Origin: a virus
Reading direction: 5' to 3' (one strand)
Length of the DNA stretch: 21,537 nucleotides
Virus record (IMG/VR): IMGVR_UViG_3300025889_001102
Coordinates: 1 to 21,537 of that record
In this document: positions 1-21,537 of the stretch, in pieces
Numbering within the stretch: position 1 is the first letter of the stretch
Layout of the letters: each line of letters begins with the position of its first letter
Program-made: the position numbers and the translations under genes
Notes under the pieces: generated by a model
Told to the model about the DNA's origin: nothing
Database searches by the model: none
What the model saw: the letters and a program-made list of their open reading frames with translations, nothing else

Positions 1-2
1 AG

Positions 3-173
3 AAAGCCGAAGGTACTTCCCCTAATTTAATTAATGGTAAATCATCAGCCCCTGTAGGCCCTGGTTTTGAATCATGGGCGCAAGTTACAGCTGCTATGAA
101 TGACCCTAGGTACACTGCTGACCCAGCTTATAGAGCAGAAGTTCAATCTAAACTGGAGAACAGTAATATATAA
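3..173 (+). CDS. Capsid assembly scaffolding protein, C-terminal end only (T7 gp9-like)
   Basis: The frame is open from the first bases of the window and stops at 171-173, giving 56 visible residues; the start lies upstream. The fragment contains FESWAQVTAAMNDPRY and ADPAYRAEVQSKL, which resemble the C-terminal helical tail of T7-type scaffolding proteins, the part that contacts capsid subunits during procapsid assembly. Position fits: in T7 the scaffold gene (9) precedes the capsid gene (10). Here four small genes are inserted between them. The stop overlaps the next start (TAATG), so translation is probably coupled. The family call rests on remembered similarity plus gene order. Confidence 0.75.
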   Translation, partial: KAEGTSPNLINGKSSAPVGPGFESWAQVTAAMNDPRYTADPAYRAEVQSKLENSNI

Positions 174-433
174 TGCCAAGAGACCCTAGATTAAAAAGAG
201 TAGGAGTAAGTGGTTTTAACAAAGCCAAGCGTACTCCTAGCCATCCCACTAAAAGTCATGTGGTGGTCGCTAAAGAAGGTAATAAAATAAAAACTATTCG
301 ATTTGGACAACAGGGAAAAACTGGTGACAGAACTATGACTAAACGTGCTAAGTCATTTAAAGCACGTCATGGTAAGAACATAGCCAAAGGTAAGATGTCT
401 GCCGCTTACTGGGCTAATAAAGTTAAATGGTAG
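173..433 (+). CDS. Small basic conserved phage protein (86 aa), function unknown
   Basis: The protein is lysine/arginine-rich and starts MPRDPRLKRVGVSGFNKAKR. The central VVVAKEGNKIKTIRFGQQG looks like a small beta hairpin, and the end, KARHGKNIAKGKMSAAYWAN, is basic with a final tryptophan. I recall very similar small proteins in many marine podo- and myophages, always uncharacterised. There is no signal peptide or membrane segment. It is coupled to the scaffold stop (TAATG) and lies in the head gene block. A virion or nucleic-acid-binding role is a guess from charge and position. The gene is clearly real; the function is unknown. Confidence 0.85.
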   Translation: MPRDPRLKRVGVSGFNKAKRTPSHPTKSHVVVAKEGNKIKTIRFGQQGKTGDRTMTKRAKSFKARHGKNIAKGKMSAAYWANKVKW

Positions 434-445
434 AAGGAGTGTATT

Positions 446-598
446 ATGCCAGGACATTATGGTAAAAAAGGAAGTATGAAAAAAGGTAAAGCAGGAAGTA
501 AGAAACCAAAAGGTGGAAAACAACTGAGTGCAAGTCAAAAGAAATTACCAGCAGCTTTACAAAAGAAAATAATGGCAAGTAAAAAGAAGAAGAAGTAA
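446..598 (+). CDS. Lysine-rich micro-protein (50 aa), function unknown
   Basis: ATG at 446 follows a strong ribosome binding site (AGAAGGAG at 432-439), and the TAA at 596-598 overlaps the ATG of the next gene. The product has 18 lysines in 50 residues and no acidic residue. It begins MPGHYGKKGSMKKGK and ends SKKKKK. Such composition resembles protamine- or histone-tail-like DNA/RNA-binding peptides, but no fold can be recognised. It is embedded between other small basic genes in a tightly packed operon, which together with the ribosome binding site is the main evidence that it is expressed. Confidence 0.7.
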   Translation: MPGHYGKKGSMKKGKAGSKKPKGGKQLSASQKKLPAALQKKIMASKKKKK

Positions 599-792
599 TG
601 CCAGTAAAAACCAAACGTAAATTTAAAAAAGTACCTAAGACAAAAGGTGGTGTCCCCACTAAGTATGTCAAAGGAGCTAAAAACCCGTCAGCAAGGGAAC
701 GTGAGATAAAGCGTACTCGTGCATTATACAAAGCGGGTAAATTAACTCCAGCCATGATGGATAGAATAAGTAAACAAAGGAGCAAAGGGTAA
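598..792 (+). CDS. Small basic conserved phage protein (64 aa), function unknown
   Basis: The protein starts MPVKTKRKFKKVPKTKGGVP and continues with KYVKGAKNPSARE and a short helical tail with LYKAGKLTPAMMDRI. It is strongly basic with no membrane segment. I recall homologous small proteins beside capsid genes of marine podophages, without a known function. It is coupled at both ends: its ATG overlaps the TAA of the preceding gene, and its TAA (790-792) overlaps the next ATG. It is probably translated as part of the scaffold-to-capsid operon. Confidence 0.8.
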   Translation: MPVKTKRKFKKVPKTKGGVPTKYVKGAKNPSAREREIKRTRALYKAGKLTPAMMDRISKQRSKG

Positions 793-1028
793 TGCCAGCA
801 AAAAAAACAGGAAAGTATTCAGGAATATCTGGAGCTTCAAGATACTCTAAATCTAAATTAGATGCTGTGTATAAGCGTGGCCTCGGAGCTTACTATAGCT
901 CAGGTTCAAGACCTAAAACATCTGCTCATGCGTGGGCAATGGGAAGAGTTAAATCATTTGTAACAGGTAAAGGCGGTGCAAGAAAAGCAGATGCTGACTT
1001 GTTACGTGGCAAAAAGAAAAAGAAATAG
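792..1028 (+). CDS. Small basic protein with an AVYKRGLGAYYSSGSRP-type domain (78 aa)
   Basis: The middle, LDAVYKRGLGAYYSSGSRP (about residues 23-41) followed by SAHAWAMGRVKSFV, matches a short domain that recurs in many phages and some large DNA viruses. I recall it as a Pfam DUF (possibly DUF5824) but cannot confirm the number. The C-terminus is a lysine tail (GKKKKK). The start overlaps the previous stop (TAATG). The stop codon at 1026-1028 forms the first base pairs of a stable hairpin, so this gene closes the small-protein operon before the capsid leader. Function unknown. Confidence 0.8.
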   Translation: MPAKKTGKYSGISGASRYSKSKLDAVYKRGLGAYYSSGSRPKTSAHAWAMGRVKSFVTGKGGARKADADLLRGKKKKK

Positions 1029-1055
1029 TCGTGCTACCTATTTAGGTGGCGACTA
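1026..1055 (+). promoter_or_regulatory. RNA hairpin in the capsid leader, no U-tract
   Basis: TAGTC (1026-1030) pairs with GACTA (1051-1055). After a two-base bulge, GCTACCT (1033-1039) pairs with AGGTGGC (1044-1050, one G-U pair) around an ATTT loop. That gives about 12 pairs. No run of T follows, so it is not a typical terminator. An RNase III site or an mRNA 5'-stabilising structure in front of the abundant capsid transcript would fit. The structure is seen in sequence; the role is inferred. Confidence 0.6.
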
Positions 1056-1163
1056 GCCTATACTAAAGTAACTGGAATAGCTTGGCCTTCTGCGGAAGAC
1101 AACCCTGATAGGAAAGGAACGGATGTAATGGCTTACACAAATAAAGATTAAAGGAGACACATT
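1056..1163 (+). promoter_or_regulatory. Capsid gene leader with two further hairpins and a 7-codon ORF
   Basis: This gap contains CTTC-TGCG-GAAG (1087-1098, a UNCG-type tetraloop) and TGTAA-TGGC-TTACA (1124-1137). The second hairpin contains the ATG of a tiny ORF, MAYTNKD, at 1128-1151, which is preceded by AAAGGA. The capsid ribosome binding site AAAGGAG follows at 1151-1157. A phage RNA polymerase promoter is expected here by analogy with T7 phi10, but I cannot identify one. The 10-mer GCTTGGCCTT (1080-1089) recurs only before the small terminase gene (17656). Confidence 0.4.
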
Positions 1164-2153
1164 ATGGCGGCATCAACCCCAGTATCAGTTGGTAGAGTCA
1201 ATGCTGGCGGCTCCGAAGACGCTTTATTTCTGAAAGTCTTTGCTGGAGAAGTTCTAACATCTTTTGAAAGAGCTTCTGTAACAGAAGGCGCAGAAATGGT
1301 CAGAGCGATTCAGAGCGGTAAATCAGCTCAGTTCCCAGTAATGGGTAGAGTAAGTGCATCTTATCATACACCAGGTGCAGAGATTACAGGCAACGACGTA
1401 AACCACAATGAAAAGGTCATTACAATTAATGACTTACTTATTTCTTCAGTGTTCTTAAGCAACATCGAAGAAGCTAAAAACCACTACGACGTAAGAGGAG
1501 CTTATTCAACAGAAATTGGAAGAGCATTAGCTTTCCAAAAAGATAAGCACGTTTTACAAACTATTGGTCAAGCAGCACAGGCATCAGCTAACGTATCTGA
1601 TTCAGGATATGGAGCAGGTACAGTGCTAACAAATACTTCAATCGCATCAGCAACAGCAGCAACAGCTGCAGACGCAATGATTGAAGAACTCTTTAACGCT
1701 GCAAAAGCATTAGATGAAAACTTCGTTCCAACAGAAGGAAGAAAATGTTTTATGAAGTTAGAAGAGTATTACAAATTAGCTAACGGAACAAACGTAGTTA
1801 ATGTAGATTTCTCAGGTGCAGGGTCTATTGCAGACGGTAAAGTATTAAAAGTTGCAGGAATTGATATTATCCCTACAGCTCACTTTACTGACATTGCAGT
1901 TGACAACTCATCTGACACAGGTGTGGACGGCGGTTCTGCTACACAAGGTGGGTCTAACCCACAGCAAGTTAACCTTGCAAACTATGTAGCATTAGTCTGT
2001 CACCCATCTGCTACAGGAACAGTTAAGTTAATGGACTTAGGTGTTGAAAGCGAATACGATATCAGAAGACAAGGCACTTTAATGGTTGCTAAATATGCTA
2101 TGGGACATGGCGTATTAAGACCAGAGGCTGCAGTCGGTATCAAAGAAGCCTAA
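1164..2153 (+). CDS. Major capsid protein (T7 gp10-like)
   Basis: The 329-residue product forms the icosahedral shell. The N-terminal region, with EDALFLKVFAGEVLTSFER followed by KSAQFPVMGRVSASYHTPG and ITINDLLISSVFLSNIEEAK, is typical of HK97-fold capsid proteins of the T7/cyanopodovirus type. The length is close to T7 gp10A (344 aa). The start has a strong AAAGGAG seven bases upstream. It is flanked by a structured leader and an intrinsic terminator, the arrangement expected for the most strongly expressed virion gene. Codon choice is regular, and I see no frameshift signal for a longer 10B-type product. Confidence 0.95.
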   Translation: MAASTPVSVGRVNAGGSEDALFLKVFAGEVLTSFERASVTEGAEMVRAIQSGKSAQFPVMGRVSASYHTPGAEITGNDVNHNEKVITINDLLISSVFLSNIEEAKNHYDVRGAYSTEIGRALAFQKDKHVLQTIGQAAQASANVSDSGYGAGTVLTNTSIASATAATAADAMIEELFNAAKALDENFVPTEGRKCFMKLEEYYKLANGTNVVNVDFSGAGSIADGKVLKVAGIDIIPTAHFTDIAVDNSSDTGVDGGSATQGGSNPQQVNLANYVALVCHPSATGTVKLMDLGVESEYDIRRQGTLMVAKYAMGHGVLRPEAAVGIKEA

Positions 2154-2170
2154 AACAGCTAGGTAATTTT

Positions 2171-2221
2171 AAGGACAGCATGGCCACCCTGAACACCCCA
2201 CTGGTCATCTGTCCTTTTTTT
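2171..2221 (+). terminator. Rho-independent terminator downstream of capsid gene
   Basis: AAGGACAG (2171-2178) pairs with CTGTCCTT (2209-2216), and ATGGCCA (2180-2186) pairs with TGGTCAT (2202-2208, one G-U), around a 15-base loop. T2215-T2221 forms an uninterrupted seven-base T tract. This is the same position as the T7 terminator Tphi after gene 10. It probably lets most transcripts stop after capsid while some read through to the tail genes. Confidence 0.9.
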
Positions 2222-2237
2222 AGATATGAGGTAAACA

Positions 2238-2843
2238 ATGGCGACACAAATAACACCCACAACCGAACTACAAGCGGTAAATATTATGCTTACAACAATT
2301 GGAGAAGCACCCGTGAACACTATCACAGGTACTACAAGTGTTGATGTATCTGTCGCTAAAAATATTTTAGATGAAACATCGATGTCAATACAAACACAAG
2401 GTTGGAATTTTAACACTGTATATAACAAGAGTCTTACTAAAGACGCAGACAATAAAGTTCCGTTACCTTCGAATTGTGTTCAGGCGGATGCTCACGATGA
2501 TTTTAGATATCGTAACTTAATCATTCGTGCTGGATATTTGTACGATGTAGACAATGACACTGATGTATTTACAGGAGATTTACCTAACTTAAATCTTGTG
2601 TTAGTACAACAGTTTGAAGATTTACCTGAGTATGCAAGAAGATATATTACTATGAAATCCTCAAGAAGATTTGCAGCGAGGTTCATAGGTGAAGAAGCTT
2701 TAGTCACACTTACAATACAAGATGAGAACGAAGCTATGATAGCATTTAAACTTGCAGACTCAAGAAGTGAAGATAACAATATACTTACAAGTGATGCAAA
2801 CACTTATTCAATTATAAACAGAGTTCCTAGAAGGAGATATTAA
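2238..2843 (+). CDS. Tail tubular protein A (T7 gp11-like)
   Basis: The product has 201 aa (T7 gp11 has 196). The N-terminus, with TELQAVNIMLTTIGEAPVN, and the segment SIQTQGWNFNT are characteristic of the gatekeeper protein that forms the ring between portal and tail nozzle. Later helices contain LPEYARRYITMKSSRRFAAR, also typical. The start is preceded by GAGGTAAAC, a modest ribosome binding site. The stop overlaps the next start (TAATG), so expression is coupled to tubular protein B, its partner in the tail. Confidence 0.93.
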   Translation: MATQITPTTELQAVNIMLTTIGEAPVNTITGTTSVDVSVAKNILDETSMSIQTQGWNFNTVYNKSLTKDADNKVPLPSNCVQADAHDDFRYRNLIIRAGYLYDVDNDTDVFTGDLPNLNLVLVQQFEDLPEYARRYITMKSSRRFAARFIGEEALVTLTIQDENEAMIAFKLADSRSEDNNILTSDANTYSIINRVPRRRY

Positions 2844-5344
2844 TGCCTGTAGTTTCCCAGACACTGCCTAACTTTAACAATGGTGTAAGCCAACAAGCAC
2901 CAACACAACGTCTGACTAGTCAAGCTACAGAACAGGTTAATATGGAAAACAACTTACTTGAAGGATTAGGCAAACGTCCACCTTTAGAGTTTGTAGCTAC
3001 TTTAGATGCTAGTAATGTTTTTCCTAACACAACAAAACTATGGAGTATTAAAAGAGATGAAGATAATCAGTACATGGTGGCAATCTACAATGGTGGGATT
3101 AAAGTCTATGATTTGGACGGCAATGAAAAAACTGTCACAACTCCAGACGGCACTTCCTATCTTGCTAGCACCAACCCTAAGGAAGATTTTAAACTTGTTA
3201 ATATTGCTGATTACACTTTTATTGCTAACAAGTCTATTACTCCTGCTGCAGATAGTACAACAAGTACTGCAAAAGTTGAGGAGTTTCTTGTTTACGTAAA
3301 GCAGGCAGCATTTGGTAGAGAATATAGTGTGCGTTTATCACACCCTGACATGACACAGACTTGGATAGAAGTTAACTTTCAGATGCCTGATGGCTCTGAT
3401 GCAAACCATGATACGGAGTTTTCAGACACAGATAAAATTGCTGACTTATTATTATATGGAGATTCTAGTACATATTGGAATAGTTCTTCAAGTGCTGAAA
3501 TTGCTGTTGTTGAAAACAATGGTGGTACATTGACCACTACAAGTACATCAACAGGACTAGCTAATACCACAAATATTACTAATCATTTTACATTTGAACT
3601 ATACTCATCCACTATTTATGGAAAGCCTACTGATGGTGACTCTGGGTACACCGTAGAAACTAGAGATGGTGCAGGTGGTACAGCTATGTATGCCATCAGA
3701 GACCAAATAGAAGACTTTACTCGTTTACCTTACTATGCAAAGAGTGGTGTAATATTACAAGTCACAGGAAGTGAAGGTGATAACTTAACAGATTATTTTG
3801 TATCATTTACCTATGATGGTATTTGGAACGAGACTCTTGGCCCTGGCGTTTCTCTTGGCTTAGATGACACTACAATGCCTCATGCTTTAATTAACAATAA
3901 TGATGGTACATTTACTTTTGCAAAACAAACTTATGATAATAGAATTGCAGGCGATGCAACAACTAATCCAAACCCTAGTTTTGTAGGCAAGGCAATACAG
4001 AACTTAACATTTTATAAAAATAGATTAGGTATTCTCTCAGGGGAAAACCTGATATTATCAGGCAACGCTGACTTCTTTAACTTCTTTGCAACTACAGCAA
4101 CACAGGTATTAGATACAGATGTTATTGATATCTCAGCTTCAGGTACACAAGTAAACACACTAAAAAATTCAGTATCATTTAACGAGTCTTTGTTACTCTT
4201 TTCTGATACCGCACAATATAAATTAACAGGCGCCCAAGGTAACATAGCACCAACTACAGCTGTGTTAAATGAGGTGTCTAGTTTTGAACATGACGATGCT
4301 GTCACCCCAGTATCAGCAGGTAGATTTGCATACTTCACACAGAAGAGAGAAAACTTTACAGGTGTTAGAGAATACTTTTCTAATGAAGATACATTAACAA
4401 ATGATGGTGTAGAAATTACACTTCATGTAGCAAGTTATATTCCTAACAGAGCATATCAGATAATACCAAATAGTAATGAAGATATGTTATTTGTTTTAAC
4501 ATCAGATGTTGCTGACACACAAACAGCACCGTATTCTGCAGGCAGTGATGTCACAGCTACCAATGCAAGTAAGTTATTTGTATATAAGTATTTCCGTAAA
4601 GACGGCTTACAAAAAGTACAGTCAGCATGGAGTACGTGGACATTTACAGGTGTAAAGATATTAGGTGGTATGACTGTCGATAGTATCTTGTATTTGTTTG
4701 TTGCAGAAGGACAGACAACTAAGCTGTGTAAAATAGATTTAAAGAACACAACCAACACTACAATTGGTTTTAATGTACACCTAGATTTACGTGATGAAGT
4801 CACAGGAACATATTCCAGTGGTACAGGGCTAACAACCTTCACTTCTCCGTATGGTGCTAAGACAGGACTTATAGCTGTCAACAGAAGCACAGGTGCAAAC
4901 TACACTGTAACAAACACAGGTGGGAGTACATATACTCTTGAAGGAAATTACACTAGTTTATACATTGGTGTTCCGTATGAAAGTGCATACACTATGTCAC
5001 CACAATACATTAGACAAACAAGTAGTACAGGTGGAGTTATATCTATAACATCAGGTAGATTACAAATACGTAATGTGTCATTTGATTTTAGAAACTCAGC
5101 TTACTTCCAAGTAGAAGTTACACCAACAAATCGTGACACTAGTATTGTGTACATGAATGGTTACATAGTCGGATTCTCAGGTCAGATAGATACACCACAA
5201 GTATCCGATGGTACACTTAGAGTACCTGTACAAGCACGTAACACAGACTATACTTTAATAGTTAAAAGCTCATCGCACTTGCCATTCTTTATTACAGGTG
5301 CAGAGATAGAAGGATATTATCATAGAAGGTCACGACAAGTATAA
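2843..5344 (+). CDS. Tail tubular protein B, nozzle (T7 gp12-like)
   Basis: The product has 833 aa, slightly longer than T7 gp12 (794). The start, VSQTLPNFNNGVSQQAP, and MENNLLEGLGKRPPLEFVA are hallmark N-terminal motifs of this nozzle protein. The middle contains FYKNRLGILSGENLILSGN followed by FFNFFATTATQVLDTDVID, also typical, and the C-terminus is beta-rich. AAGGAGAT lies just upstream of the ATG, which overlaps the stop of the preceding gene. The protein forms the tail tip that carries the fibres and the channel for DNA ejection. Confidence 0.95.
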   Translation: MPVVSQTLPNFNNGVSQQAPTQRLTSQATEQVNMENNLLEGLGKRPPLEFVATLDASNVFPNTTKLWSIKRDEDNQYMVAIYNGGIKVYDLDGNEKTVTTPDGTSYLASTNPKEDFKLVNIADYTFIANKSITPAADSTTSTAKVEEFLVYVKQAAFGREYSVRLSHPDMTQTWIEVNFQMPDGSDANHDTEFSDTDKIADLLLYGDSSTYWNSSSSAEIAVVENNGGTLTTTSTSTGLANTTNITNHFTFELYSSTIYGKPTDGDSGYTVETRDGAGGTAMYAIRDQIEDFTRLPYYAKSGVILQVTGSEGDNLTDYFVSFTYDGIWNETLGPGVSLGLDDTTMPHALINNNDGTFTFAKQTYDNRIAGDATTNPNPSFVGKAIQNLTFYKNRLGILSGENLILSGNADFFNFFATTATQVLDTDVIDISASGTQVNTLKNSVSFNESLLLFSDTAQYKLTGAQGNIAPTTAVLNEVSSFEHDDAVTPVSAGRFAYFTQKRENFTGVREYFSNEDTLTNDGVEITLHVASYIPNRAYQIIPNSNEDMLFVLTSDVADTQTAPYSAGSDVTATNASKLFVYKYFRKDGLQKVQSAWSTWTFTGVKILGGMTVDSILYLFVAEGQTTKLCKIDLKNTTNTTIGFNVHLDLRDEVTGTYSSGTGLTTFTSPYGAKTGLIAVNRSTGANYTVTNTGGSTYTLEGNYTSLYIGVPYESAYTMSPQYIRQTSSTGGVISITSGRLQIRNVSFDFRNSAYFQVEVTPTNRDTSIVYMNGYIVGFSGQIDTPQVSDGTLRVPVQARNTDYTLIVKSSSHLPFFITGAEIEGYYHRRSRQV

Positions 5345-5384
5345 GTTAAAAGTAATTAAGTCAGAGCCTAGACACGCTTATAAG

Positions 5385-5810
5385 TTGGCACCGAATATGA
5401 GTTTTATGGATGCACAGGAAGTCTGGGCATCAGATAGAGCCACTCCCTTAGAGGCTCTTATATACCCCTTGACTAAACAAGGTGGTAGAAACTACACAGG
5501 TTTATCCCCTGAGGGTGAACCCATGTGTATGTTTGGAACACATCCTGCAGAGATGGAAGGTTACGGTGTAATCTGGTTTCTAGGAAGTGATGAATTAAAA
5601 AAGTACAAATATTTAGTAGTAAAAATGTGTTTAGAAATTGTACCTAAGTTAGCACATGGGTATAAAGTTCTATACAATTTTGTAGACAAGCGTCACAAAC
5701 AAGCAATCAAGTGGCTTAAGATATTAGGTTTTAAAGAAACTTATGAGGTTAAGTCTTTTGGTTATGGTAAAATACCATTTATTTTAATGACATATGAGGT
5801 GAATAAATAA
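5385..5810 (+). CDS. Internal virion protein A (T7 gp13-like, acetyltransferase-like fold)
   Basis: The product is 141 aa from a TTG at 5385 (T7 gp13 is 138). MSFMDAQEVWASDRATPLEA, an internal GVIWFLGS strand and YNFVDKRHKQAIKWLKILGF match the gp13 family, which has a GNAT-like shape and is needed for normal virion assembly. The start is uncertain. The same frame is open back to 5310 and reads like coding sequence (LKVIKSEPRHAYKLAPNM), but it contains no ATG or GTG and no TTG before 5385. The first in-frame ATG is at 5397. The stop codon overlaps the start of the next gene region (AATAATG). Confidence 0.82.
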   Translation: MAPNMSFMDAQEVWASDRATPLEALIYPLTKQGGRNYTGLSPEGEPMCMFGTHPAEMEGYGVIWFLGSDELKKYKYLVVKMCLEIVPKLAHGYKVLYNFVDKRHKQAIKWLKILGFKETYEVKSFGYGKIPFILMTYEVNK

Positions 5811-6355
5811 TGTGCGGAGTAGGCGAAGCTTTATTAGCGTTTCGAGTTTTATCAACTGTTAAACAGTTCCAGCAGCAAAATGCTATGGCATCAGCTATTG
5901 AACGACAGCAGGAACGAGCTAGAGAAGCATACCTAATTGGATACAATCGTGACCTAGAGCGTATTCAAACAGAATCTAACCAAGTCGCTATTCAAGAACG
6001 AATTGAAGAAATGAAAATTGATGCAGCAAGACGTAGAGATATTGCCAAAGCATTAAATCAAAATGTAGGTAATGCCCGTGCAGTTGTGCAAGACTTAGGC
6101 CTTGAGTTTGAATTTGCAGAACAAGACTTAAGAGCTAGTGTCACCGAAGATTATAACACTTTAAACAGACAGCAATTAGAAGCATTTAATCAACTGTCTA
6201 GTAATTATGCAGGATTAACCCCACCAACTAGAGCCTCTAAAACAGGATTAGCTCTAGGCATTGGAGAAGCAGTCGGGGGCTACTTAACTATCCCAGGAGA
6301 AAATCGTAAATTCTTTTCAGACTTTAATCCAACAGGAACACCAACAGGAAAATAG
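5810..6355 (+). CDS. Internal virion protein B (T7 gp14-like)
   Basis: The product has 181 aa (T7 gp14 has 196). It begins MCGVGEALLAFRVLSTVKQF and continues as a long charged helix (RQQERAREAYLIGYNRDLER onward), then a glycine-rich tail (LALGIGEAVGGYL). In T7 this protein leaves the head first and forms the outer-membrane part of the ejection channel. It sits exactly between the gp13-like and gp15-like genes. Its identity comes from order, length and helical character rather than a catalytic motif. Confidence 0.85.
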   Translation: MCGVGEALLAFRVLSTVKQFQQQNAMASAIERQQERAREAYLIGYNRDLERIQTESNQVAIQERIEEMKIDAARRRDIAKALNQNVGNARAVVQDLGLEFEFAEQDLRASVTEDYNTLNRQQLEAFNQLSSNYAGLTPPTRASKTGLALGIGEAVGGYLTIPGENRKFFSDFNPTGTPTGK

Positions 6356-6363
6356 GAGATAAC

Positions 6364-8130
6364 ATGGCTTACAAATCACCAGTCACACAATACAAATGGT
6401 TTCAATCACAAGCACCAACAGTAGGACGTCTACAAAAGACTACTGAAGGGGACCAGATTGTTAAAGCTTTAGAAAGTATCTCACCTGTATTAGCAAATGT
6501 AGGAGCTTCATATATAAGTGATAAACAACAAAAAGCAGTCACACAGTTACGTGAGTTAAAAACTCAACTGGGTGCTGACTTTAGTGAAGAAAAAGTAAAT
6601 GAATTAATTAAATCAGGACAAGCACCTGAATTAGAAAGTATGTATTCCCAAGCTGTCAAAGATAGGTTTTATGCAAAAGTGGATGCAGCAGATGACATAG
6701 CAAAGGTAGTACAACGTTGGGACCAATATGATGGTACTCAAGACTTCGATGACTTCTTTAACTCTAGCCTAAGAGATTCGTCTGAAATTGAAGGCAAAGG
6801 ACAAGGTTATCGTAATAGTTATTATGCAGCTATAGAGGAAGTTAAATCTAAGTATGCAATCAAAGCAGCAGAATTACAAGCCGAGCGTATTACAGAAAAA
6901 ATTAACAGTGACATTGTAAAAGTGTATAAAAACTATGATGTAGATACAGCCAATGAAATACTTAACCAAGGTATTACTAATAATATTTACAGCCCAACTC
7001 AAATAACAACAGGTTTGATGAGTATTGGCACAGCCGCTTTAAGTAGTATGGACATAGATGAAGTGGGAAAAGCAATTGAATTACTTGAAACACCTAGAAA
7101 TTTAGCTAAAGGTGTTGGCAGACTAGCAGATACAAAAGATGGTATGGCTCTTAGTGTTAAATTAAATACTCGTTTAGAACAATTAATAAATGCGCAAAAC
7201 AGCGAATCTTATATAGAATTACAAGAGAATATTAATGGTAACATTTCATCAGCATTACAATCTGCAGACCCTGTTGGCTCATTGAATTTCTTACAGATAG
7301 CTGGTTTACCAAAAGGAAAACTTCAGGCAAATGAAAATAATGGTGGTGCTGAGTTAGAAGATATAAAACGATTCCAACTTGATATTATGAGAGGAGATGT
7401 TGATTCAGAGCAAGAATTATTACATACAGGTGCTCGTTATGGCCTTACAACAACTCAGATTAAAACATATGGTTTGGAGATGTTTAACGGTATGAAAGAA
7501 AATAATTTCGTTAGTGTTGCAAACCGTTCAGATTTTGATGTGATTACAAGCATAGATTATATTAGCGGTGTAATCCCTAGGGGTGAGACTGCTGCAGACC
7601 AAATGGAACACATGAACGCAGTAATGGCTGAATCCAATGAAATCATCTATCGAATTGGAAAGGCACAGGTAGAAGGTAAAACTACAGAAGAGATTATTAA
7701 TAGTGTTAAAACATATTTAGAAACTAAGTATAGTGTAAAACCACAAGATAGAGTTCCAGAACCTGTAACAGAAATAACTTCACAAGAAGATTTAGATACA
7801 AGGTTAAACCGTTTATTTACAAAAAGTATCACAGACCCAAACACTATTGAAGATGTCTTTGGCGGTGGTGTAACGCGAGATGAAGTCTATCGACCTGATT
7901 TAACTTCAGGTGTAACTGAGATGTTTAGCGCCCCTGATGACGCAACGTTCCTTTTAAACGATGAATATATTCCAAAAATTGCTGACTATTTAATACGAGA
8001 ATATGGCGGCGACTTACAAGATGCCACAAATGTTTTAAACAACCTACAGAATTATTTTGGTTTAACAGATGAACAGCAAGGAAAAATGTATCAACTTTAT
8101 TTACAAAATCTACAACAAGGTGGTAATTAA
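6364..8130 (+). CDS. Internal virion protein C (T7 gp15-like)
   Basis: The product has 588 aa, shorter than T7 gp15 (747). It is almost entirely predicted helix, with repeated charged segments and no membrane span, fitting the hub of the internal core and the periplasmic tunnel formed during infection. AGGAG lies shortly before the ATG. The TAA at 8128-8130 overlaps the ATG of the gp16-like gene, so the two tunnel proteins are translationally coupled. The assignment relies on synteny and overall character, as this family diverges quickly. Confidence 0.85.
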   Translation: MAYKSPVTQYKWFQSQAPTVGRLQKTTEGDQIVKALESISPVLANVGASYISDKQQKAVTQLRELKTQLGADFSEEKVNELIKSGQAPELESMYSQAVKDRFYAKVDAADDIAKVVQRWDQYDGTQDFDDFFNSSLRDSSEIEGKGQGYRNSYYAAIEEVKSKYAIKAAELQAERITEKINSDIVKVYKNYDVDTANEILNQGITNNIYSPTQITTGLMSIGTAALSSMDIDEVGKAIELLETPRNLAKGVGRLADTKDGMALSVKLNTRLEQLINAQNSESYIELQENINGNISSALQSADPVGSLNFLQIAGLPKGKLQANENNGGAELEDIKRFQLDIMRGDVDSEQELLHTGARYGLTTTQIKTYGLEMFNGMKENNFVSVANRSDFDVITSIDYISGVIPRGETAADQMEHMNAVMAESNEIIYRIGKAQVEGKTTEEIINSVKTYLETKYSVKPQDRVPEPVTEITSQEDLDTRLNRLFTKSITDPNTIEDVFGGGVTRDEVYRPDLTSGVTEMFSAPDDATFLLNDEYIPKIADYLIREYGGDLQDATNVLNNLQNYFGLTDEQQGKMYQLYLQNLQQGGN

Positions 8131-11100
8131 TGGCCGTTGATTATGCTGGTATAAAGAACGATATCCTAGGTGATGAAGTACCTGAAAAAACATTAGACAC
8201 TCAGTTGTACTACGGCAATGGAGTTTATTTAAAACCTTTGTCAAAGCAGGAACGAGCTTTGCAAAAATTAAAAGAGCCTGAAACTATAGAGCAAATCAGA
8301 GACTTTTTAGCCTACAAAGATAATAACCAAGCTATCCTAGGTTATGAACCAGCAGAAGTTCTTGAAGAATTTTACAATGATAGAAGCTGGGCTAACAACA
8401 ACACTATAGGAATGGGTGCTGATTTATGGGATGTCACTGGCATGGACCTACGCCGTAAACAACAGTATGCTTTTATTCAGGGTATATATAATGATTTACC
8501 TTATTTTTGGAATGACCCAAATCGTGACTTTGGTCCGTGGTTAGTTGACATGGGACAAGCATTGTTAATGGACCCATTAAATCTTATTACTTTGGGTGTT
8601 GGTGGACAAGTAGCTAAACAAGGTTTTAGAACTTTGCTAAACCAAGGGTTGAATAAGATTGCGGCAAAACAGGTCAACAAAAACTTAATCAAAGAAATTG
8701 CGGAAGACAATGCTAAAAAGAATCTTAAAAATGCTGTCTATAAAAGTGCATTGCTAGAAGGCAGTATAACTGGTCTAGCCACAGGAACATTTGATGTACT
8801 ACAACAAAATATAAATAAACAAATCTCACCTGATACAGAATATGATTTAAAACAAACACTATATGCCACAGCTGCAGGGTTTGGCTTTGGTACTACTTTA
8901 GGTGCTGCATTTGGATATGGTTCATTTACATTTAGAAATAAAGCATTGAAAAATGAAACTATACAAACATTTAGTAAGTTAAAAGATTTAGGATTGAGTG
9001 AAGAAACTCCAGGTAAAGTGTTGTTTGATGCAGTAGATAAACGATATCTAAATCACACAGTGCATATACCTCTTGAAAGAACAGCTGATGAAAGTGCTAA
9101 TGATTACATACTAAAACTGTATGGTGATTTGTCACAGCATTTTAACCCTAAATATACACCTGACACACCAGGAGAAGTCGCAGGGCGTACATATAAACCA
9201 GATGAATTAGAGAAGTTACCTTTTAACATTCGTCTATTCCCTGAAGAAGTGCAACCTGACTTAGCCAGGCTTATTGAACGACAAGTAGCAACGGATGTAG
9301 ATTATTATAATTCTCCTAACTTTGACCGTGCAGAAGTTATAGAACGTTTATCAACTAAAGACATTTCTAATCCTGCAAAATTAATCGAGGCCCTAGAAGG
9401 TAAACTAGGGGGAGATGAAGCAAGAGAAATTGCGGTAAACATTCTATCGTTAGATAAACTAAATCAATTTATCTTAACAGCGAAACGAGATTTAGCAATT
9501 CAAATCTCAAGAGGAGACATTACTACTGCAGATTTTGACATACTATCTAAAGAAGCTGCAAAACTTGGCAGAATATCAGATGCTTTAGTTGCTAACTCTA
9601 AGAAGTTTAAAGGACGAATTGCTAACATCCTGCAAACCATGGGTATTAAAAAAGAAGATATCTTTGCAGAAGTAGAAGAATTAAAATTTAAACCAACAGA
9701 CCCATACATGAAAGCACTTGCTGAAGGTGATATTAATGCACAGAAAAAGTATTGGGAAACAGTTGCAAAATTTACTGACTATGAACAGATGAAGATTGCA
9801 TTAACTGATATTAAGAATTATGACTCATTAGATTTATGGGCCACGTGGGTTAACAACGCATTGTTGTCCTCACCTGATACGCATATACTTAACATAACCT
9901 CAGGGCTATTTCAAATGCAATGGCAGCCTATACAATTGTATACACGTGGCTTTTTAATGCGTAAGGTAGATAAAGAATTATCTGCTAAATACAGACGAGA
10001 AGCATTAGAAACTTGGCAGTATTCAATGGTCTATCTTAAGGAAGGTGTACAGGCTTTTGCTAACTCATTTAAAAACAACAGAAACTTTTTAAGTTCCTCT
10101 GAATTAAAGTATGATATTAATGTTAACCAACGTGTGTTAGAACACGTGATACAAAAAATAGGTGAAAAGTTTACATCAAAACTTCCACAAGTTATTGGAG
10201 ATAAACTCCAAGCAGGGATTAATGTCGGTGCTAAAGTCGTAAACTTACCTCTTCGTGCATTACAGGCTGGAGATGAATTCATTAAAACAACAGCATTTAA
10301 AGCTAGAAGTGCATCTAAAATTAATTCTATTATCATGAAAGAGAATCCTGCATTGTTAGAAAACAAGTTTGGATTACTAGGCAAAGCAGACCCACAATAC
10401 AAAAAACGTTTCAATGAGTTGATGGAAAATTTCTTCTCTAAAGAAGTTAGAAATGAATCAGGACAGATTATACAGTATGGTGGACGTGCCTTATCATTAG
10501 ACAAATTAGATTTTCCTGAGTTACCAGCTGTTGATAGACTTACAGATAACGACAGTTTAGTATACGCAGATAGAGTAGCATTTACGCAGCGTGGATATCG
10601 AGAAAGTAAAATCAATGATTATGGTGAAGTTGAGTACGGTAAAGATTTAACAGGTACTACAGCCAAGATTATACAGGGATTAAGCGGTGATTATAAATGG
10701 GCAAGAATTTTAGGACTTCACTTTGTAAACACACCAGGTAACTTAACTCGTTTCGTGTTTCAGCACGCACCATTTAGTTTAGGAAAGTATCAAAGAGATA
10801 TGAAATATATGCTTCGTAAAAATAAAGATGGAAGCTATGTAAATCCAACAGCGGCTTATGAAGCAAAAGCAAGAATGAACTTAGGTAATCTTACTTGGGT
10901 GGCAGGTATTGGACTTGCTTTAATGGGTAAGACTACAGGTGGTGGTTCAAGAGATTACAGAGTCAATGAGTTCCGAGAAAAAGAAGGACTGTGGCAACCA
11001 TACTCATATAGAACATCTGATGGGTTTGTTAGTCTTAACAGATTAGACCCTTTGTTTACTCCTTTTATGATTGCAGCAGATATTGTGCAGATTATACAGG

Positions 11101-12051: not shown

Positions 12052-14421
12052 ATGGCAAATTCATTCGTAAGATACACAGGTGACGGTAGCACGACTACTT
12101 ATTCAGTGCCGTTTAGCTATCGTAGCCAAGATGACATTACAGTAACCATTGGTGGTGTAGTAACAACTGCTTTCACTTACAATGCAGCAGGGACAGAAAT
12201 TACATTTACAAGTCCACCTGCAGACCAGAGTGCTATCCAAATTACTCGTAAGACCAGCCAGGGAACAAAGCTAGTAGACTATACTTCAGGCTCTGTTCTT
12301 ACAGAAGGCGACTTAGACACAGACTCAGACCAGGCATTTTTCATGGCACAAGAGGCTATCGATGATGCTGATGATGTTATCAAGATATCAGCAGTGAACT
12401 TCCAATGGGATGCCACAAGTAAAAGAATTACAAATGTAAGTGACCCAACATCTGCACAAGATGCAGCTACAAAAACATGGGTTGAAACAGCAGCGACTTC
12501 ACAAGTAACAGCTGCAACTACACAAGCAACTAATGCAGCTAACAGTGCAACTGCGGCAGCTACAAGTGCAAGCAATGCCTCTACATCAGAGAGCAATGCC
12601 GCTACAAGTGCAACTAATGCCTCTAATAGTGCTACAACAGCGACTACACAGGCATCTAATGCTAGCACAAGTGCAACAAATGCAGCCACATCGGCTACAA
12701 ATGCGGCAACTAGCGAGACTAATGCGGCAACTTCAGCCACAAATGCAGCAACCTCAGAGACCAATGCGGCTACTTCAGCATCAAACGCATCTACTTCTGA
12801 AAGTAATGCAAGTTCCTCAGCTAGTGCAGCAAGCACATCTGCTACAGCAGCAGCCTCTAGTGCGACAAGTGCTAGTGGGAGTGCAACAACAGCTACAACT
12901 AAAGCATCTGAGGCATCAACTTCAGCCACTAATGCAGCAACTAGTGCAACTAATGCGGCAACCTCAGAGACTAATGCAGGTACATCCGAAACAAATGCTG
13001 CCAACTCAGCGACAGCGGCAGCAACTAGTGCAACTAATTCGGCTAATAGTGCGACAGCTGCAGCTACAAGTGCGACAAATGCTGGAACTTCTGAAACTAA
13101 TGCAGCGACTTCTGCTACCAACGCTGCTACTTCTGCTACTAATGCAGCAACTAGTGAAACAAATGCAGCAGCAAGTTATGATGATTTTGATGATAGATAT
13201 TTAGGAGCTAAAAGTTCTGACCCAACACTAGACAATGATGGTGATGCTCTGGTTACAGGTGCATTATATTTCAATACCACATCAAATGAAATGAAAGTAT
13301 ATAGTGGTAGTGCATGGGGTGCTGTAGCACCTACTGCAACAAGTGCTTCTGATTTAACAACAGGCACATTGCCAATAGCAAGAATAGCAGCAGATTCTAT
13401 CACAAATGACAAACTAGATAATCCTGGTAGAAGAAATATAATTATAAATGGTGATATGAGAATAGCACAAAGAGGTACATCCGTAACAGGTAAAACTAGT
13501 TCTGGTTATTTTACTGTAGATAGATGGCTAATGGATATTGGTACAGCAGGTACATGGACAATATCTCAATCAACTGATGTTCCAAGTGGACAAGGATTTG
13601 GTTATTCCACAAAATGGGATTGCACAACAGCAAATGCAAGTTTGTCAGCAGGTTCATTTATGACACATCAACAACGATTTGAAGGACACGAGTTACAAAG
13701 ATTAAAAAAGGGTACATCTAATGCTGAAGCGACAACAATATCTTTTTGGGTTAAATCAAATAAAACAGGAACATATATTGTTGAAATAGAAGATAGAGAT
13801 AATACAAGACATATTTCACAATCTTATACAATAGATAGTGCAAGTACATGGGAAAAGAAAACATTAACATTTGCTGGAGATACAACAGGAGCATTTGATA
13901 ATGATACTTCTGCAAGTGTTCATTTATTCTTTTGGCTTGTAGCAGGTACAAATTATTCTTCTGGCACATTAGCAACATCTTGGGCAGCAAAAACTAATGC
14001 TAATAGAGCTGTTGGACAAGTAAATTTAGCAGATAGCACAAGTAATGAATTTTACATTACAGGAGTACAATGGGAACTAGGAAGTGTAGCATCTGATTTT
14101 GAAGATATAAGCTATGATGAACAAGAACAAAGATGTTGGAGATACTGTCAGATAAATGATTTAAGAGCAACAGGATGGGCTACAAGTGCGACAGTAACTG
14201 AAGCTGGATATACATATTCTAAAGCTATGAGAGCTACACCTACTATTACATCCCTTGGTGGTTTTGTTAGATACGGACCAGGTGGACAACAAACACCTAG
14301 TAACACAGCACATACAATTACACGTTGGAGTACACAAGTTACACAAACTATTGGTGGTGGAATGGGAACAAACAATCCGACGTTAAATGCGTTTTACTTT
14401 AGAGCAGAGGCAGAGTTATAA
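12052..14421 (+). CDS. Tail fibre protein with T7 gp17-type N-terminus
   Basis: The product has 789 aa. Residues about 1-150 (FVRYTGDGSTTTYSVPFSYR, ITRKTSQGTKLVDYTSGSVL, LDTDSDQAFFMAQEAIDDA) are the T7-fibre-type attachment domain that docks on the nozzle. Residues about 150-373 are an Ala/Thr/Ser/Asn repeat with seven-residue period (ATSATNA, ATSETNA), probably a trimeric stalk. The distal part starts with RRNIIINGDMRIAQRGTS, a motif of many marine phage fibres. It continues as a beta-rich region containing ISFWVKSNKTGTYIV and FYITGVQWELGS that resembles a jelly-roll carbohydrate-binding domain and is the likely receptor binder. Confidence 0.93.
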   Translation: MANSFVRYTGDGSTTTYSVPFSYRSQDDITVTIGGVVTTAFTYNAAGTEITFTSPPADQSAIQITRKTSQGTKLVDYTSGSVLTEGDLDTDSDQAFFMAQEAIDDADDVIKISAVNFQWDATSKRITNVSDPTSAQDAATKTWVETAATSQVTAATTQATNAANSATAAATSASNASTSESNAATSATNASNSATTATTQASNASTSATNAATSATNAATSETNAATSATNAATSETNAATSASNASTSESNASSSASAASTSATAAASSATSASGSATTATTKASEASTSATNAATSATNAATSETNAGTSETNAANSATAAATSATNSANSATAAATSATNAGTSETNAATSATNAATSATNAATSETNAAASYDDFDDRYLGAKSSDPTLDNDGDALVTGALYFNTTSNEMKVYSGSAWGAVAPTATSASDLTTGTLPIARIAADSITNDKLDNPGRRNIIINGDMRIAQRGTSVTGKTSSGYFTVDRWLMDIGTAGTWTISQSTDVPSGQGFGYSTKWDCTTANASLSAGSFMTHQQRFEGHELQRLKKGTSNAEATTISFWVKSNKTGTYIVEIEDRDNTRHISQSYTIDSASTWEKKTLTFAGDTTGAFDNDTSASVHLFFWLVAGTNYSSGTLATSWAAKTNANRAVGQVNLADSTSNEFYITGVQWELGSVASDFEDISYDEQEQRCWRYCQINDLRATGWATSATVTEAGYTYSKAMRATPTITSLGGFVRYGPGGQQTPSNTAHTITRWSTQVTQTIGGGMGTNNPTLNAFYFRAEAEL
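12490..13170 (+). repeat. Degenerate 21-bp tandem repeat coding the fibre stalk
   Basis: Units of the type 'aat gca gca act agt gca act' recur with a 21-base (seven-codon) period and variable third bases. The repeat is kept at protein level (A-T-S-x-T/S-N-A) rather than as identical DNA, pointing to selection for a stalk structure. It also generates long but spurious open frames in other frames and on the opposite strand. Confidence 0.85.
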
Positions 14422-20231: not shown

Positions 20232-20320
20232 GAATTAGGTTCCCATTTTAGAGTAACCCTGTTGCACCATATAGAGTAATACATTCATCACCCTTTTACA
20301 CCTCTTATTATAGGGTACTT

Positions 20321-20391
20321 ATAGGAGTAATAAAGGAGTAATAAAGGTAGTAATTAAGGTAGTAATTAGGTAGTAATTAAGGTAGTAATTA
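20321..20391 (+). repeat. Tandem repeat array, (A)AGGTAGTAATT x4 plus two degenerate AGGAGTAAT units
   Basis: Units begin at 20321 and 20332 (AGGAGTAAT type), then 20344, 20356, 20368 and 20379 (AGGTAGTAATT type). The period is 11-12 bp, about one helical turn, so bound proteins would line up on one face. T7 has arrays of short direct repeats next to its terminal repeat; this may be the analogue, or an origin/packaging element. Confidence 0.85.
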
Positions 20392-20499
20392 GTCTATTTT
20401 TTTAGGAAATGTTACTTTATAACATAAGGTAATTTTAAATTATTTTCTTTCGTAAGTCTCTGTAATCATTGACAAAAAAAAATTAGTGAAAAAAAAAGC

Positions 20500-20806: not shown

Positions 20807-20865
20807 TGTACATCTTAGGCTAACAGCCTAACTGATGATGGCCACACTATTGGCCGAAATGTACA
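20807..20865 (+). ncRNA. Hammerhead self-cleaving ribozyme, type III topology
   Basis: All parts occur in order. Helix III 5' strand is TGTACAT (20807-20813), ending in the conserved U16.1, followed by cleavage residue C17 (20814). Helix I is TTAGGCT-AAC-AGCCTAA (20815-20831), then the core CTGATGA (20832-20838). Helix II is GGCCA-CACTAT-TGGCC (20840-20855), then the core GAA (20856-20858). Helix III 3' strand is ATGTACA (20859-20865), starting with A15.1. Predicted cleavage is between 20814 and 20815, so the downstream mRNA keeps the folded ribozyme as its 5' end. The one deviation is an extra U (20839) between A9 and helix II; I recall an extra residue there in some natural viroid and virusoid hammerheads. 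Confidence 0.88.
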
Positions 20866-20866
20866 C

Positions 20867-20882
20867 ATCACCCAAAGGGTTA
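20867..20882 (+). repeat. 16-nt leader element ATCACCCAAAGGGTTA, copy 1
   Basis: It is identical to 21386-21401 and lies 20 bases before an ATG, with AAAGGAGAA between. It can form ACCC-AAA-GGGT. It is found only behind the two ribozymes in this window, not in any late leader. Confidence 0.9.
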
Positions 20883-20902
20883 AGTACAAAGGAGAATACA
20901 TC

Positions 20903-21304
20903 ATGAAAACATTATTAACTAAAGACCAACTAAACACACACCTTGAACTAGATAGGGTAGATTTTGAACTCAAATCAAGCACTAAGAGATTTTTTCTAGA
21001 GGTTCATTCTGAGGACTGGGACTGGGAAGACTACACCTCAAAACACGGAAGCAAACACTCCCAGCAACTACAGGCAATCAAGCAAGTTAAGGCTAACATC
21101 GACGGAGCTTTTAAAAGTCTATGTCGATTAAAAAACGACGGAATTATTAACTTTCGCTTTAAGGATGTTATCGACCTTTGCACGAATCTTGAGTTACCAG
21201 AGACTAAAGAGTATGGTTTCAGCGAGCTTTATCTTGAGGGGTTTTATAGAGAGTTAATCCGCATGATTAAAATCACCCATAAGGTATATGCAACCGAAGC
21301 CTAA
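20903..21304 (+). CDS. Early protein of unknown function (133 aa)
   Basis: ATG at 20903 follows AAAGGAGAA, eight bases upstream. The protein is soluble and mainly helical, with many charged residues of both signs. It has an aromatic/acidic patch (HSEDWDWEDYTSKHGSKHSQ, about residues 35-54) and a leucine-rich C-terminal helix (SELYLEGFYRELIRMIKITH). I do not recognise a family. As the first convincing gene after the junction it occupies the place where T7 carries host-takeover genes such as 0.3, so a host-directed role is possible but unproven. Its stop codon lies three bases before the type I ribozyme. Confidence 0.8.
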   Translation: MKTLLTKDQLNTHLELDRVDFELKSSTKRFFLEVHSEDWDWEDYTSKHGSKHSQQLQAIKQVKANIDGAFKSLCRLKNDGIINFRFKDVIDLCTNLELPETKEYGFSELYLEGFYRELIRMIKITHKVYATEA

Positions 21305-21307
21305 CAG

Positions 21308-21382
21308 CCACACTGACGAGCTGTAGAGACAGCGAAACGGCCTAGAGGAACGAAGTTCCTGACAAGCAATGGCCGTCTGTGG
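21308..21382 (+). ncRNA. Hammerhead self-cleaving ribozyme, type I topology, GUC site
   Basis: Helix I 5' strand is CCACA (21308-21312), then the core CTGACGA (21313-21319). Helix II is GCTGT-AGAG-ACAGC (21320-21333), then the core GAA (21334-21336). Helix III is ACGGCC (21337-21342) with GGCCGT (21371-21376), extended inside by AGGAAC-GAA-GTTCCT (21346-21360). C17 is at 21377, and helix I 3' strand is TGTGG (21378-21382). Every conserved core base matches, and all helices are perfect Watson-Crick. The cleavage triplet is GUC (21375-21377), with cleavage before 21378. The downstream mRNA then begins with a 43-base leader; the upstream gene's mRNA keeps the ribozyme as a structured 3' end. Confidence 0.95.
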
Positions 21383-21385
21383 ATA

Positions 21386-21401
21386 ATCACCCAAAGGGTT
21401 A
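21386..21401 (+). repeat. 16-nt leader element ATCACCCAAAGGGTTA, copy 2
   Basis: It is identical to the copy at 20867-20882, with AAGGAGAA next and the ATG 19 bases downstream. Position relative to ribozyme, Shine-Dalgarno sequence and ATG is the same as in copy 1 within a few bases. Confidence 0.9.
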
Positions 21402-21420
21402 CATCCCAAGGAGAAACAAA

Positions 21421-21537
21421 ATGACAACACAAGAAGCAATACAAATAACAGAAAGAGTAATTGAGGAAGAAAAGGCAACGGTGAGTGCTTTAAAAAAGAT
21501 TTTAAGAGAAGCTGAAAAGGCAGAAAAAGATTTAGAA
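21421..21537 (+). CDS. Early protein, N-terminal part only, helical (39 aa visible)
   Basis: ATG at 21421 follows AAGGAGAA. The frame is open to the window end. The visible part (MTTQEAIQITERVIEEEKAT, then LKKILREAEKAEKDLE) is a charged helix with coiled-coil character. The family is unknown. It is the second gene downstream of a ribozyme and 16-nt element module. Confidence 0.7.
   Translation, partial: MTTQEAIQITERVIEEEKATVSALKKILREAEKAEKDLE

Follow-up and report, generated by a model that had tools for sequence, protein, structure and literature searches.

How might a phage divide its first transcript into separate messages? The question is raised by the end of a 21,537-nucleotide stretch of viral DNA (IMG/VR record IMGVR_UViG_3300025889_001102, positions 1 to 21,537; hereafter the window), where two early genes are each preceded by a hammerhead ribozyme, a 16-nt element and a Shine-Dalgarno sequence. 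In phage T7, the host enzyme RNase III makes cuts in the leader and between early genes at the left end of the genome, a region that lies before and around the gene for the phage RNA polymerase. The window genome has T7-like gene order, with a large terminase, a lysozyme, an early region and a single-subunit RNA polymerase, and has the features of a Pelagivirus-like podophage (Autographiviridae). Its RNA polymerase is 52–57% identical to those of cultured pelagiphages. The initial annotation proposed that such a phage could have built T7-like processing into the RNA itself, an interpretation that is partly supported by the analysis reported here. Hammerheads occupy the early region across this phage lineage, and they probably cut the early transcript in which they lie, as an in cis equivalent of RNase III acting on the T7 early transcript.

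Two Hammerhead Ribozymes at the Start of the Early Region

The two ribozymes have the following parts.

20807–20865, plus strand: element 1, a type III hammerhead ribozyme in the 5′ leader of the first ribozyme-headed early gene; predicted cleavage between 20814 and 20815
20832–20838, plus strand: catalytic core CUGAUGA of element 1, with partner GAA at 20856–20858
Stems of element 1: III, UGUACAU/AUGUACA (7 bp); I, UUAGGCU-AAC-AGCCUAA; II, GGCCA/UGGCC
21308–21382, plus strand: element 2, a type I hammerhead ribozyme between both genes, 3 nt past the stop codon; predicted cleavage between 21377 and 21378
21313–21319, plus strand: catalytic core CUGACGA of element 2, with partner GAA at 21334–21336
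Stems of element 2: I, CCACA/UGUGG; II, GCUGU-AGAG-ACAGC; III, ACGGCC/GGCCGU with an inner hairpin

Each element joins three stems through the core CUGANGA and GAA, element 1 being open at stem III, as in type III hammerheads, and element 2 at stem I, as in type I. The cleavage-site bases, as read from the sequence, are U20813 (16.1), C20814 (C17) and A20859 (A15.1) in element 1 and U21376 (16.1), C21377 (C17) and A21337 (A15.1) in element 2, so that an A15.1-U16.1 pair and an H at position 17 before the cut are present in both. For each, the exact minimum-energy fold is the hammerhead, at -19.9 kcal/mol for element 1 (z -4.4 with four flanking bases) and -24.8 kcal/mol for element 2. Judged by sequence and fold, both are hammerhead ribozymes, predicted to self-cleave, and they form the start of an early-region array.

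Models built from other phages, with the window and its near relatives left out, recover both elements. Covariance model R1 (type I, 30 sequences) matches element 2 at 51.7 bits (E=1.9e-12) and model R2 (type III, 13 sequences) matches element 1 at 33.2 bits (E=1.7e-6); the best remaining match in the window (E 0.0079) is truncated, on the minus strand and inside a gene. These independent models, together with the identity of the two copies of ATCACCCAAAGGGTTA, bear out the initial claim of a hammerhead, a 16-nt element and a Shine-Dalgarno sequence before both window genes. A descriptor defined by the core and three stems, with a score of 13 or more, found 1 match in 200 simulated windows. 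In the model alignments, changes on both sides occur in 13/15 pairs for type I and in 12/15 for type III while the core is fixed, and 98–99% of cells pair, a figure that falls to 25–39% when the partner is shifted by one base; the descriptor demands pairing, so this covariation agrees with function but depends on selection.

An Array Upstream of the RNA Polymerase Gene Across the Lineage

The window includes the first 117 bases of the second gene, too little to judge whether a ribozyme precedes each early gene. A contig of 40,025 bases (IMGVR_UViG_3300025803_000024) covers the whole window in two pieces, at 99.6% and 99.9% identity with an overlap of about 1 kb, as expected if the contig is a whole genome opened elsewhere. 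It carries four hammerheads (III, I, I, I), at 8564, 9045, 9350 and 9774, heading the first four genes of the array. Two ribozymes beyond those in the window are thus found where the initial annotation had suggested looking, in the next early gaps. The descriptor and both models found no hammerhead before the later early genes of this contig or elsewhere in it, and the idea of a ribozyme before each early gene holds for the first four genes but not for the gaps that follow them on the way to the RNA polymerase gene. The leader that follows the fourth hammerhead gene has a plain hairpin before its Shine-Dalgarno sequence.

Related marine podophages, the other comparison called for at the outset, have the same kind of array. 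A survey was anchored on the phage RNA polymerase gene and covered the best 80 of 359 IMG/VR loci. It returned 126 non-overlapping model matches, every one of them sense-strand and upstream of the RNA polymerase gene (225 kb), with 0 matches downstream of that gene (618 kb) and 0 antisense (842 kb). These strand and position results are independent of descriptor selection, unlike the covariation. At least one model match was present in 38/39 loci with at least 2.5 kb upstream, and in the remaining locus, L003, one hammerhead of each type, with unusual joints, was recognized by eye. In one 2.4-Mb metagenome-assembled genome with a phage contig of this kind, the type I model matched three times, each time on one and the same contig. 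L139 (NHCX01000075.1), from a Verrucomicrobia metagenome-assembled genome, encodes a pelagiphage-type RNA polymerase; it is probably a misbinned phage contig. Nine "downstream" descriptor matches were rejected: they fall at two places, both in coding sequence (the one at +1359 belongs to the RNA polymerase gene), their stems are irregular, and the covariance models lend them no support. The presence of the hammerheads, their structure, their covariation and their constraint to one strand and one position thus extend across the lineage.

Cultured phages are among the carriers. The models found hammerheads in HTVC031P, Eistla, HTVC109P, HTVC142P, HTVC019P, HTVC021P and HTVC121P. They gave no match in HTVC105P, of the same genus, or in the left ends of T7 (1–8000), P-SSP7, HTVC011P, HTVC119P, HTVC120P, HTVC134P and HTVC309P. 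Five whole pelagiphage records list coding sequences only and leave the hammerheads unannotated. The first base of the HTVC109P record lies within a type III hammerhead. P109_gp01 is annotated as starting there (base 1, ATGAGCGAAAC), on what is ribozyme sequence; its likely start is the ATG at about base 35, after AAAGGA. The record of Eistla EXVC025P gives several of its early genes implausible product names (mucin-19 like, histone acetyltransferase, MoaE-like), which were probably carried over from weak matches.

General RNA libraries miss these elements. An Rfam scan of the whole window reported neither hammerhead, and on a short stretch Rfam gave sub-threshold matches for element 2 only (RAGATH-1-hammerhead, 21.2 bits against a cut-off of 56.3); on the cultured phages and relatives, no hammerhead exceeded the curated cut-offs. 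The families Hammerhead_3 (RF00008) and RAGATH-1-hammerhead (RF03152) have the same core and three-stem fold, and the phage copies score under their curated cut-offs. Such a lack of matches is what chance or decayed hammerhead-like folds, devoid of present function, would also give. Against this stand the bias of strand and position (126 to 0), the covariation, the intact cores and E-values of 1e-6 to 1e-16, which refute chance or decay as an account of the whole hammerhead set and leave the explanation hardly credible. The Rfam miss reflects the library models and not the fold itself. A weak match to isrG at 12800–13048 (minus strand, E 0.0023) was dismissed as spurious, since it falls in a repetitive tail-fibre gene; this gene, at 12052–14421 of the window, contains a long Ala/Ser/Thr/Asn-rich repeat. 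Searches by similarity yielded little: a blastn comparison of phage records with the two-ribozyme stretch returned weak matches only (no longer than 53 bases, E at least 0.6), and the fourth early protein had no tblastn match in phage records.

Placement and Order of the Two Types

Layout was assessed on 74 strong matches, 58 of type I and 16 of type III. None of the 74 overlaps the interior of a called gene, against 63% for random positions. Type III elements end a median of 11 nt before the start codon (60 nt or less in 16/16) and type I elements a median of 33 nt before it. The upstream stop codon is adjoined by 43/58 type I elements compared with 2/16 of type III (Fisher p 1.2e-5), and in some type I elements the UGA of the catalytic core doubles as the upstream stop codon. 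Type III lies ahead of type I in 11/11 array clusters with both types, and likewise in the cultured phages HTVC031P, HTVC142P, HTVC109P and HTVC019P. Because the arrays share ancestry, neither the order nor the Fisher test is fully independent, and the p-values are optimistic. Arrays with type I alone exist, and there are a few weaker internal type III matches (L127, L112).

The genes between the ribozymes are less constant than the ribozymes themselves. In L015 and L012 the gene between two type I hammerheads differs, and a relative of the L015 gene lies in another array, in L019; in these three loci early genes between the same ribozymes are swapped among relatives, in a cassette-like layout. 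In the near-identical genome, two hammerheads match at 68/78 positions and yet head unrelated genes, and inconstant flanked genes were also reported for prophage hammerheads (Perreault et al., 2011; PMC3088659). The modules might accordingly be kept mainly as borders of mobile or recombining gene cassettes, with near-identical leaders permitting early-gene swaps and RNA cutting as a side effect. However, stem sequences have diverged widely across the lineage with pairing and core retained, which recombination alone would not preserve, and cassettes leave unexplained why type III occupies the leader and type I the gaps between genes. As the main reason for the arrays, cassette borders seem rather unlikely; swapping and transcript processing can both be true together.

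Probable Self-Processing of the Early Transcript

The presence of ribozymes before the first genes in nearly all examined relatives suggests that the cutting of early mRNA is built into the RNA itself. We infer that cutting takes place in infected cells, on one long host-made transcript, with the chemical ends and the benefit set out here. Host RNA polymerase would most likely produce a single long early transcript, and the ribozymes would cut it during its synthesis. Hammerhead geometry leaves a cleaved type III almost whole on the downstream RNA and a cleaved type I on the upstream RNA. The leading type III would therefore remove the leader and remain as a structured 5′ end, about 63–69 nt long, on the first mRNA. 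Each type I would cut between two genes and remain as the structured 3′ end of the upstream mRNA, leaving the Shine-Dalgarno sequence of the downstream gene in a short leader (median 40 nt). For the window phage, the first two cuts would release a one-gene mRNA of 563 nt (20815–21377) with ribozyme RNA at both ends, and mRNAs after the first would have ribozyme RNA at the 3′ end. Structured ends, and a 5′-OH replacing the triphosphate, are expected to alter decay, and the benefit may lie in separate mRNA stability and translation for each early gene. More tentatively, and with less than even confidence, the two types might have two jobs, the leader type III capping the 5′ end of the first early mRNA and the intergenic type I capping the 3′ end of every upstream mRNA, yielding single-gene, ribozyme-ended mRNAs without a protein nuclease.

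Known systems offer three points of comparison. The early region of T7 occupies the same place in the genome, and cut sites are predicted here at the corresponding places, the leader and the gaps between early genes ahead of the RNA polymerase gene; the cutter is host RNase III in T7 and, by prediction, the RNA itself here. The comparison with T7 made by the initial annotation stands as regards position, while the cutting itself is predicted. Hundreds of bacterial hammerheads have been described, among them clusters flanking genes in prophages, for which the processing of long phage transcripts was proposed; three prophage clusters cleaved in vitro and one in E. coli (Perreault et al., 2011; PMC3088659). 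We count this cleavage by similar clusters in favor of self-cleavage here, and likewise the effect of RiboJ on expression in E. coli that is described below. The same work corrects the impression that no phage precedent had been described. As in those clusters, several same-strand hammerheads flank single genes or short blocks whose identity is inconstant. The earlier clusters belong to prophages, many near integrases, whereas those described here belong to marine T7-like podophages, are confined to DNA upstream of the RNA polymerase gene and follow an order in which type III comes first and type I lies between genes. The marine podophage lineage, the T7 early position and the order of types are new relative to the 2011 kind. 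Searches of open-access journal papers turned up no account of these hammerheads for pelagiphages, Autographiviridae, podoviruses or SAR11. An unrelated 66.6-kb contig from a phage other than a pelagiphage (IMGVR_UViG_3300037466_000798) has at least six type I hammerheads in successive gene gaps (8.7–13.2 kb, minus strand) and a serine-recombinase-like gene, and looks like the kind reported in 2011.

The third comparison is with RiboJ, in which a type III hammerhead is followed by a small hairpin and then by a ribosome-binding site. The phage leaders share this arrangement; RiboJ comes from synthetic biology, and the phage elements are natural, arranged in an array and combined with type I copies. 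According to one fold prediction for one small group, the UGUAC of stem III that is freed by cleavage is able to base-pair with a GUACA that precedes the Shine-Dalgarno sequence, enclosing the ACCC-AAA-GGGU hairpin; the predicted structure resembles the RiboJ insulator hairpin. An alternative is that the ribozymes regulate rather than generally process, with the expression of each early gene set by cleavage or by a ligand or protein that prevents it, in the manner of insulator ribozymes. The ribozymes directly precede start codons, and RiboJ, a hammerhead so placed in a 5′ leader, increased protein output in E. coli two- to tenfold and transcript level about twofold (PMC6206723). Predicted Shine-Dalgarno exposure goes up after type III cleavage in 9/13 cases (0.55 to 0.74). 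Type I elements, the majority, lack such an effect (25 up, 23 down), there is no conserved aptamer-like domain, and stem III length and loops vary freely; we consider regulation of this kind quite unlikely.

Several observations weigh against self-cleavage of the early transcript as the role of the arrays. Type I cleavage, as just noted, leaves predicted Shine-Dalgarno exposure unchanged. A single additional U (20839) between A9 and stem II of element 1 could slow its cutting. HTVC105P lacks a model match, and some podophages do without hammerheads. Many early gaps of the same genomes have no ribozyme, so ribozymes are not the sole means of handling early RNA. The covariation was obtained on sequences that a pairing-dependent descriptor had picked, and the layout tests share the ancestry of the arrays.

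If the proposed cutting is true, a major marine phage lineage, including cultured phages of SAR11, an abundant ocean bacterium, processes its first transcript with its own RNA. The 2011 proposal could then be tested in cultured phages that can be grown and sampled and whose arrays obey a conserved rule (type III first, type I in the gaps between genes), the function of natural hammerheads of bacterial viruses would become directly testable, and a whole ribozyme set overlooked by standard annotation would come to light.

Leader Elements and Early Genes

Downstream of each window hammerhead the order is ATCACCCAAAGGGTTA, AAGGAG and ATG, and the 30-nt leader up to the Shine-Dalgarno sequence is 87% identical between both copies.

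20867–20882, plus strand: 16-nt leader element ATCACCCAAAGGGTTA, copy 1, containing a small hairpin, ACCC-AAA-GGGU (fold prediction)
20889–20894, plus strand: Shine-Dalgarno sequence AAGGAG, 8 nt before the ATG at 20903
20903–21304, plus strand: first ribozyme-headed early gene, 133 aa
21386–21401, plus strand: 16-nt leader element, copy 2, identical to copy 1
21408–21413, plus strand: Shine-Dalgarno sequence AAGGAG, preceding the ATG at 21421
21421–21537, plus strand: second early gene, which runs past the window end and has 58 codons in the near-identical contig

The product of the first gene has no PHROG match and no Pfam match. Hairpin variants of the 16-nt element keep their pairing, judged by eye (CCCC-AAA-GGGG in L036, ACCA-ACA-UGGU in L019). 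The element had been taken as part of the ribozyme module; it does follow both window hammerheads, but in L003, L006 and L019 it occurs after a stop codon without any ribozyme. It is a leader element separable from the ribozymes, confined in this lineage to positions before early genes, on which ground the idea of a phage promoter was dropped; other pattern matches of the 16-mer were mostly unrelated sequences and were set aside.

Where an early gap has no ribozyme, a different leader element stands directly before AAGGAG: a hairpin, for example GCCAGU...ACUGGC, whose letters are altered yet paired in L015 and L019. These plain-hairpin leaders are located as follows.

L012, 6100–6150
L015, minus strand, about 250–225
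L019, 2450–2490
L003, 1015–1050 and 1330–1370

Short tandem repeats (GTAATTAAGGTA and variants) lie at 20304–20396 of the window, upstream of the early region and beside an AT-rich stretch that could contain the early promoter or a packaging or replication signal.
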